The notes below the pieces were generated by a model. The model made no database searches and was not told the DNA's origin. It saw only the letters and a list, made by a program, of their open reading frames with translations. This document shows positions 15,309 through 54,195 of a stretch of 64,000 nucleotides of DNA, piece by piece. Every line of letters begins with the position of its first letter. Position 1 is the first letter of the stretch. This DNA comes from Clostridium cylindrosporum DSM 605 (GTDB taxonomy: Bacteria > Bacillota > Clostridia > Clostridiales > Caloramatoraceae), in contig NZ_LFVU01000007.1 of NCBI RefSeq assembly GCF_001047375.1, forward strand, positions 1-64,000, given 5' to 3'. Made by a program: the position numbers and the translations under genes.

Positions 15309-15523
15309 AGGTCTCATAGCAAGTAGTGGTGCCTACGGCTAAAGCTATAGAGCCAAGAGTTAGATATTCTTATCCATGAAAATATCCTTAGACCTAGTAA
15401 AGAAGCATGTTTGAGCTTTTAGGCGAGTTTGCGCTGCACTTGGTCTAAGGGTATTTTCATAGATTAGAATATCTTCTCGAAGGTCTCGTAGTTTTAGACG
15501 TAGGCACCACTACTTGCTCGACC
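15309..15523 (-). repeat. Full copy (B) of the double-hairpin element
   Basis: Outer perfect 20-bp stem (15318-15337 and 15499-15518), an imperfectly paired middle, and an inner stem (15376-15394 with 15442-15460, one or two mismatches) closed by a 47-nt loop containing GTTTGAGCTTTTAGGCGAGT. The whole reads as one 67-bp imperfect inverted repeat. It lies between divergent genes. The rest of 14571-15601 shows no coding region. Confidence 0.8.
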
Positions 15524-49074: not shown

Positions 49075-49470
49075 TTATATACTATAGATACCTTTTGTTT
49101 TAAGATATCTTTCTATTTTTTCTGTATACTCTGTTCTTTTATTAATACATTTAGCAAACTCTAGGCCTTCTTGTGGTGTTAATGCATTACCTCCACTTGC
49201 TTTAGACCTAATTTCTCTTATTGTATTCTCATTTACTATATATCCTCTAAGTAATTCTATATAATAAATTTGTGGTGTATGTTCAAGGGATATATCATGA
49301 CTAAAGGATTCCTTTTCATCATCTGTCATAGAAGCTCCATCAACCATAAAATAATCACTACTAACACATCCATTTACTTCTTTTAGGAATTCTACCATAC
49401 TCTCTTCTTCCTTATATCTAATAATAGCATCATCTAAAGCTATCTTTAATAACATCTTAATACCTTCCAT
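49075..49470 (-). CDS. Hypothetical protein (131 aa)
   Basis: A soluble, helical, acidic protein read from the ATG at 49470 (AAAGGAG about 12 bases upstream). Segments such as EESMVEFLKEVNGCVSSDYFMVDGASMTDDEKESF and GGNALTPQEGLEFAKCINKRTEY are not recognised. It is divergent to nothing and has its own terminator. Confidence 0.5.
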   Translation of the reverse strand: MEGIKMLLKIALDDAIIRYKEEESMVEFLKEVNGCVSSDYFMVDGASMTDDEKESFSHDISLEHTPQIYYIELLRGYIVNENTIREIRSKASGGNALTPQEGLEFAKCINKRTEYTEKIERYLKTKGIYSI

Positions 49471-49633
49471 AGTTCTCTTATCTCCTTTCTTTTCCTTATC
49501 TAATCCACGAAGTATATATAACATAAATTATACATAAGTTGCTTCTGTAAGTCTAAAATATTTAATCTTATATTAGAGTTAAAATCCCTAATACTCCTAA
49601 ACCCTTGATTATGAGATTTTCTTATGCCTTTGA

Positions 49634-50476
49634 TTATAGCTCTACTGATTCAGTTCTAAATGCCTCCATCATCTCACTTGTAAGACTTATATTTAGATTA
49701 GGACTTGGTATATCTTCTCTGTCCACCCAAACTCCTAATGACAGTTCATCTTCATCAATGGTGATTTCGTCATCCCCATCAAGCTCAGCAAAAAATCCAA
49801 CAAGAAGCGTATCACTAAAAGGCCATGGTTGGCTCTTATAGAATTTAAGATTTTTCACCTTAAGCCCCACTTCCTCTTTTACTTCTCTGTAAACTGTTTG
49901 TTCAAGACTTTCCCCTATCTCAGCAAAACCAGCTATAAGAGCATAATTATTGTAAGCACGCCCTGCATACTTTGTTAAAAGCAGGCGATTTCCATTATAA
50001 ACAGCTACTATAACACATGGAGATATAGTTGGATATACTTTAAATCCACATGATTCACAATAAAGCATACGTTGCTTTTTTGAATGTTTCATTGACTTGC
50101 TACACTTACTACAGAAACGATGACTATCATACCAGCGATTTAACTGCCATCCAACAACACCTACAAATGAGCGCCAGTATTTTGGCTCAGTTCTAAACCT
50201 GTTAATACTTGCATAACTCCACCCATTTATTGAATCAAGTCCCTTTTCATTTACTAAGTAATAGTTAATATTATCTATACTAAAAAGGAATTGAGCATTA
50301 TCTATAAGACCTGGATATTCCACTTGAAAATCAGAAAACGACGGATACCAAAGCTTATCTTTATCCTCTCTAATAAGTACTGTATCTCCCTCATATGAAA
50401 GAAAGAGATCTTGAGGCTCTGCTACTTTATCTTTAAAGTTATTATCAAATATTCTTGGTTCTATATCTTGAATCAT
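49634..50476 (-). CDS. nudC: NAD(+) diphosphatase / RNA deNADding enzyme NudC
   Basis: A 280-residue Nudix hydrolase. A four-Cys zinc ribbon (CSKCSKSM ... YCESCG, about 121-144) separates the N-terminal domain from the Nudix domain. The Nudix box is GFAEIGESLEQTVYREVKEEVGL and the NADH-specific SQPWPFSDTLLVGF follows. It splits NAD(H) and can remove NAD caps from RNA. GGAGG precedes the ATG. It is divergent from the gene at 50647. Confidence 0.9.
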   Translation of the reverse strand: MIQDIEPRIFDNNFKDKVAEPQDLFLSYEGDTVLIREDKDKLWYPSFSDFQVEYPGLIDNAQFLFSIDNINYYLVNEKGLDSINGWSYASINRFRTEPKYWRSFVGVVGWQLNRWYDSHRFCSKCSKSMKHSKKQRMLYCESCGFKVYPTISPCVIVAVYNGNRLLLTKYAGRAYNNYALIAGFAEIGESLEQTVYREVKEEVGLKVKNLKFYKSQPWPFSDTLLVGFFAELDGDDEITIDEDELSLGVWVDREDIPSPNLNISLTSEMMEAFRTESVEL

Positions 50477-50600
50477 CCTAGACCTCCTTCATTTGCAGTA
50501 AATCTAATCTACCTTTTCCCCGTTTATTATAATAACTATTCCACTATATGTAAAACAAAGTTTTCTCTTTTTTCTTACCTCAATCATATATATAAATCAC

Positions 50601-50644
50601 TAACTCCTAATATATTATTAATACAAATAATATATTAGGAGTTA
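50601..50644 (+). promoter_or_regulatory. Perfect hairpin covering the ribosome binding site
   Basis: Perfect 19-bp arms (50601-50619, 50626-50644) with a 6-nt loop AATACA. The right arm contains the AGGAG ribosome binding site of the gene starting at 50647, only two bases away. In mRNA the site would be fully paired. It could equally be a dyad operator on DNA. Confidence 0.8.
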
Positions 50645-50646
50645 AA

Positions 50647-51030
50647 ATGGCTATACATGAAAACTTAATATGGAGAACAAGCTACCAGGAATCTCATTTA
50701 GAAACAAGTACTAAAGTTATAGAAATATATTTAATTACAACATACCCAGACACAGTTACCCCTGAGCAAAAAGCTACTATAATTAACTGCTCTACAAAGG
50801 CTACACATATTGCCTATACTACTTTTACATCAACACATCAAGAACTCATAGATGGAACAGAAGAATTATTTGATCTAATATCAATTGTTAATACAAGTAT
50901 AAAATCCGCTGAAATTGCTGCTAGAAAATCATTTAATGAGTATACAATAAATTCTTTGCCCTACGAAATTTTAAATAAAATAGAAATAAAGATTAAGCAA
51001 GGACCTTTGACCTCAAGTAATAATATCTAA
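50647..51030 (+). CDS. Hypothetical protein (127 aa) under hairpin control
   Basis: A soluble protein rich in Thr and Ser (ATIINCSTKATHIAYTTFTSTHQELIDGTEELFDLISIVNTSIKSAEIAARKSF). The end of the protein is polar. No family is recognised. The 19-bp hairpin immediately upstream hides its ribosome binding site, so expression may depend on RNA melting or a partner. A copy of the double-hairpin element lies 60 bp beyond the stop. Confidence 0.55.
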   Translation: MAIHENLIWRTSYQESHLETSTKVIEIYLITTYPDTVTPEQKATIINCSTKATHIAYTTFTSTHQELIDGTEELFDLISIVNTSIKSAEIAARKSFNEYTINSLPYEILNKIEIKIKQGPLTSSNNI

Positions 51031-51088
51031 ACAAAAATATAAAAATCCTACTCTCCAACCTCCTGTATTTAACCGTAGGAATAGCTTC

Positions 51089-51293
51089 ATTGCAAGTAGT
51101 AGTGGCTCCTTCTAAAACCATAGAGCAAAGAGCTAGAAATTCTTATCTTTATAAATGCCCTTAGACTTAGTAAGTGAGTATGTTTGAGCCTTTAGGCGAG
51201 TTTACTACTTTCTTAGTCTAAGGGCATTTATGGAGATTAGAAGTTCTTCTCGAATATCTCGTGGTTTTAGAAGGAGCCACTACTACTGCAGAC
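51089..51293 (-). repeat. Full copy (C) of the double-hairpin element
   Basis: Outer perfect 25-bp stem (51096-51120, 51262-51286), inner perfect 17-bp stem (51151-51167, 51215-51231), and a 47-nt loop with GTTTGAGCCTTTAGGCGAGT, nearly identical to copy B. Between the stems lie GAGCTAGAAATTCTTATC on the left and GATTAGAAGTTCTTCTCGAA on the right. It sits between convergent genes. Confidence 0.8.
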
Positions 51294-51313
51294 ACTACCC
51301 CTAAATAATATAA

Positions 51314-53919: not shown

Positions 53920-53983
53920 TTATAAAACTGAAATCTTTCCACTCCAGGATAGAATTAATTTTTTATTCTGTAGGATTAGTATC

Positions 53984-54187
53984 TTTGCAATTAGTGGTGC
54001 CTACGGCTAAAGCAATAGAGCCTAGAGTTAGAAATTCTTATCTGAAGCAAATGCCCCGAATCTTAGAGATACGTCGTCAAGCATAGCGGTTTTTCAGACG
54101 TAGCTCTTAGATTCGGGGCATTTGTGAAGATTAGAAGTTCTTTGATAGGTCTCGTCGCTTTAGATGTAGGCACCACTAATTGCAAGA
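53984..54187 (-). repeat. Full copy (D) of the double-hairpin element
   Basis: Outer perfect 20-bp stem (53985-54004, 54166-54185), inner stem with 16 perfect pairs (54048-54063, 54109-54124) that extends a further 8-10 bp with two mismatches. The junction segments GAGTTAGAAATTCTTATC and GATTAGAAGTTCTTTGATAG are conserved with copies B and C, but the inner stem and loop have a different sequence. It lies between convergent genes. Confidence 0.8.
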
Positions 54188-54195
54188 CACTTAAG

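Follow-up and report, generated by a model that had tools for sequence, protein, structure and literature searches.

A perfect 19-bp hairpin over the Shine-Dalgarno sequence of an orphan ORF in Clostridium cylindrosporum, a possible translation gate

In phage T4, a helix immediately upstream of genes e, soc, 49 and I-TevI sequesters the Shine-Dalgarno sequence and/or the AUG (PMC3014915). A gene e transcript whose 5' end lies beyond the 5' strand of the helix avoids this pairing and is well translated, while the long ones fold over the site. The long early transcripts, the late promoters and an effect of 100-fold have been documented in the T4 system (PMC3014915). In Clostridium cylindrosporum DSM 605, a dyad before a 127-aa ORF likewise pairs the Shine-Dalgarno sequence in a stable helix. 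Unlike the T4 genes, this ORF is on a bacterial contig, and the proposed gating is read from the DNA sequence and a fold model. A hairpin has also been described for the homing endonuclease gene mobE (J Bacteriol 2009, as cited in PMC3014915), which is a phage gene, unlike the 127-aa ORF. The colA leader/VR-RNA system of Clostridium perfringens belongs to a low-GC Gram-positive bacterium and has a leader structure hiding the ribosome binding site, but colA is opened by a trans-acting small RNA and none is known for the 127-aa ORF (PMC4691137). RNA thermometers also keep the Shine-Dalgarno sequence paired in a leader hairpin, whereas the stem described here is perfect and, in the model, does not open at temperatures up to 85 C.

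The dyad and its neighbours

The features of the locus are listed below. Coordinates are those of the window, which is the whole 64,000-nt stretch of DNA that was analysed (contig NZ_LFVU01000007.1, positions 1 to 64,000).

49634-50476, - strand: nudC (NAD+ diphosphatase, NF001299), divergent from the 127-aa ORF
50526-50554, - strand: nudC promoter candidate, TTTACA, 17 nt, TATAAT (11/12), score 11.2
50601-50619, + strand: left arm of the dyad, with CTCCT as the anti-Shine-Dalgarno
50611-50618, + strand: weak -10-like hexamers TATATT (50611-50616) and TATTAT (50613-50618), lacking a good -35 and scoring below the mean of shuffles
50620-50625, + strand: loop of the dyad, AATACA, 6 nt
50626-50644, + strand: right arm of the dyad
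50637-50641, + strand: Shine-Dalgarno AGGAG, every base paired within the hairpin, ATG at 50647 5 nt on
50647-51030, + strand: orphan ORF, 127 aa, without a relative or domain, atypical codon usage

The sequence-only reading of this DNA had described a perfect 19-bp hairpin with a 6-nt loop that occludes a Shine-Dalgarno sequence, and both parts of this description were confirmed. All 19 of the 19 arm positions pair (100% complementary) with 6 nt between the arms, AGGAG is within the right arm, and the arms have a G+C content of 16%. The distance of two bases to the ATG given in that reading is the distance from the end of the right arm, while AGGAG itself is 5 nt from the ATG. Folded as RNA, the dyad has a minimum free energy of -23.1 kcal/mol, compared with -6.19 +/- 2.04 for 200 dinucleotide shuffles (z -8.29), none of which folded as well. 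With the local base composition, a perfect dyad of such size is expected about 7e-5 times per 64 kb.

The background sample was the window plus 20 segments of 20 kb each from this genome (464 kb in all, about 1/6 of the genome). Perfect hairpins with arms of at least 15 were found 34 times in these 464 kb, most of them lying where a gene ends and resembling terminators. Thus, long perfect hairpins are common here because of terminators, and it is the position of the dyad at 50601-50644 that is unusual. Among the 300 hairpins with arms of at least 10 in the 464 kb (both strands counted), none but this dyad covers a Shine-Dalgarno sequence with a suitably spaced start codon and an ORF of at least 50 aa behind it. 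The fold of the start region is also far stronger here (-23.1) than at 173 other Shine-Dalgarno gene starts (mean -6.2, sd 3.1, strongest -16.9), the sample gene sets being longest-ORF calls rather than curated annotation. A further long dyad close to where a gene begins was seen at L114:12247-12296. Its 23 bp pair perfectly, it stands in a divergent region with the 5' end of a - strand ORF 37 nt away, and with its little T tract it does not resemble a terminator.

Several other features of the neighbourhood were recorded. The nudC protein shares 70-83% identity with proteins from Sedimentibacter, Anaerocolumna and other Clostridia, and its best matches in genomes of the same family reach only about 30-42%, a pattern that could come from transfer or from loss in the relatives. 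On the - strand, a 149-aa ORF at 49075-49524 has good codon usage and no Pfam, NCBIfam or convincing PHROG match. Furthermore, a palindromic repeat of about 200 nt at 51085-51300 is also found at 15314-15514 and 53982-54191. It has 26 matches in the genome, some of them being one and the same copy matched on its reverse strand, and at E 1e-5 it has none in 59 other genomes of the order. When 11 copies were aligned, three of them as reverse-strand matches (as the palindrome allows), 35 of the 54 predicted pairs were preserved in at least one copy despite changes on both sides; changes shared between copies are not independent events.

Stems with the same outer sequence, ACTCCTAAT...ATTAGGAGT, were found in seven other genomes of the order. 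In six of these genomes at least one strand has 6 or 7 T in 8, and the stems are terminator-like. One of these stems (AACTCCTAAT/ATTAGGAGTT, L108:1501-1546, -15.7 kcal/mol), which is imperfect and weaker, pairs an AGGAG just as the dyad does. It is 7 nt upstream of a TTG, a candidate start, and the 296-aa frame that begins with this TTG has a D12 DNA methyltransferase domain (E 1.7e-18). If this putative TTG start is used, the L108 stem suggests that hidden sites of such make occur before real genes. On three viral contigs (L143-L145), the stem ACTCCTAAT...ATTAGGAGT is followed 4 nt on by an ORF of 45 aa (twice) or 68 aa.

The 127-aa ORF

No convincing relative of the ORF was found in 60 relatives, 225 order-level genomes and 391 class-level genomes, and none in genome, viral or plasmid collections. 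Nothing in Pfam reached the curated cut-off, and NCBIfam, PHROGs, PADLOC and PDB gave no match. Since the genomes compared include no genus mate, the orphan status is weak evidence. The weak class-level matches were taken as noise. By reading, one resembles the start of a ribonucleotide reductase (L131), one is antisense to a 359-aa ORF resembling mnmA (L132) and one resembles a sigma factor (L134), while the match in L133 reads through many stops.

The ORF might not be a gene at all, in which case the placement of the hairpin would be coincidental. Its lack of relatives in the collections searched fits this reading, as do the lack of a recognisable sigma-A promoter, an AlphaFold model without a confident fold (mean pLDDT 43.8), and a codon score at the 4th percentile of genes, a score that 12% of spurious ORFs also reach. 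However, under an order-2 Markov model, a start within 7 positions followed by an ORF of at least 127 aa has a probability of about 1.6e-5. A link between the site and the ORF by chance is unlikely. Moreover, the ORF frame scores best of the three + strand frames, and its G+C content at codon position 3 (0.20) is gene-like (0.22 in genes). One - strand frame over the region scores slightly higher (0.045 vs 0.031), but it is interrupted by stops. We consider it quite improbable that the ORF is not a gene.

Transcript start and alternative explanations

In the fold model, opening AGGAG costs 14.0-16.3 kcal/mol in transcripts that start at 50600 or earlier, and 3.8-4.6 kcal/mol in those that start at 50609-50634. 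Loss of the left arm frees AGGAG, an effect seen in the fold model only. In a scan for sigma-A promoters, none for the ORF was recognisable upstream of or inside the left arm. The best promoter score on the + strand was 5.6, compared with a mean of 6.8 for the best scores of shuffled sequences. If the weak hexamers at 50611-50618 were used, transcription would start near 50623-50625. A transcript start inside or after the left arm is a live possibility. The sequence-only reading had set such an outcome, worded there as a start in or past the right arm, against its own proposal. There is no + strand gene close upstream that would give read-through, and the ORFs to the left are on the - strand. 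Between 48500 and 52500, no Rfam riboswitch or other Rfam element reached its gathering score.

The explanation that we prefer, tentatively, is an RNA translation gate that is set by the 5' end of the transcript, as in T4 gene e; the perfect stem with AGGAG inside it, the fold energies, the improbability of a chance link between site and ORF, the L108 stem and the likeness to T4 point to it. The lack of a recognisable sigma-A promoter and of a + strand gene close upstream counts against it, as does the weak codon usage of the ORF. A transcript from upstream of about 50606 would contain both arms, AGGAG would be locked in the 19-bp stem, and the 127-aa protein would hardly be made. A transcript from about 50609 or later, inside or after the left arm, would leave the site accessible and the ORF would be translated. 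This explanation supposes expression of the ORF, a promoter within the left arm and the existence of longer transcripts. By the fold model, the dyad probably blocks the translation of any transcript that has both arms, and from this anatomy we infer the function.

The main rival to the translation gate is a DNA operator, the alternative also named in the sequence-only reading, in which the dyad would bind a dimeric or tetrameric repressor over the transcription start of the ORF and the RNA pairing would be incidental. The dyad is perfect and within a divergent intergenic region, and such symmetry would equally suit a dimeric DNA-binding protein. The start near 50623-50625, if the weak -10 hexamers are used, coincides with the dyad centre at 50622.5, which is the classical position of an operator, and each arm contains the palindrome TAATATATTA, with centres 20 bp apart. 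However, a near-complete symmetry over 44 bp is long for an operator. Outside the two arms, the genome has no match to the 18-nt arm core with fewer than two mismatches, and matches with up to three mismatches are about as frequent (57) as in a reversed control (51). Neither the ORF, which has no confident fold, nor the immediate neighbours scanned contain a DNA-binding family of Pfam or NCBIfam. Two special forms of an operator were set aside. A regulon operator was rejected, as there is no second copy of the arm in the genome. As for a conserved nudC operator, 24 of the 27 nudC-related loci have no inverted repeat with arms of at least 9 in the 400 bases upstream, and the other three (L054, L062, L073) have inverted repeats of unrelated sequence. 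With no comparable dyad at any of the 27 loci, the dyad does not travel with nudC, which counts against the operator. Taken with these points, an operator seems rather unlikely but is a serious competitor. It is very improbable that one sequence, with a promoter inside its 5' arm, serves a bacterial chromosomal gene both as a repressor operator in DNA and as a translation lock against read-through in RNA.

A displaced or decayed terminator, which has lost its U tract and whose stem now happens to precede an ORF, is improbable as well. The ACTCCTAAT...ATTAGGAGT stems of the seven other genomes, most of them with T tracts, agree with such an origin, and a weak terminator pattern was flagged at the dyad on the - strand, where 0.8 such patterns are expected by chance. 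However, there are at most three T in eight at the 3' base on the + strand, in agreement, for this strand, with the sequence-only reading that the hairpin is not a terminator, and five in eight on the - strand, and the arms are poor in G+C. No gene ends into the dyad on either strand, and a decayed terminator leaves both the spacing from site to start and the length of the ORF unexplained. Of the three openers that the same reading had proposed, one being an RNA-binding protein, the other two fared less well. An RNA thermometer, in which the hairpin melts on warming and the site is freed, agrees with the AU-rich middle of the stem, but the probability of being unpaired is below 0.1 for each AGGAG base up to 85 C in the model, and we regard a thermometer as scarcely credible. 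Opening by a ribosome on an upstream peptide was not borne out, as the only + strand ORFs that begin in 50477-50600 are 1 and 2 codons long. Leader-peptide control was thus rejected, with no upstream + strand ORF of more than 2 codons in this interval.

Meaning of a possible start-site gate

The translation gate would extend a known kind of gene control to a new setting, and mechanistically it is plausible. If true, it would bring little that is new in principle. The orphan gene would be silent in read-through transcripts and would be active only when transcription begins within the left arm, and the locus would be a bacterial case of start-site-gated translation, a device best documented in phage T4.
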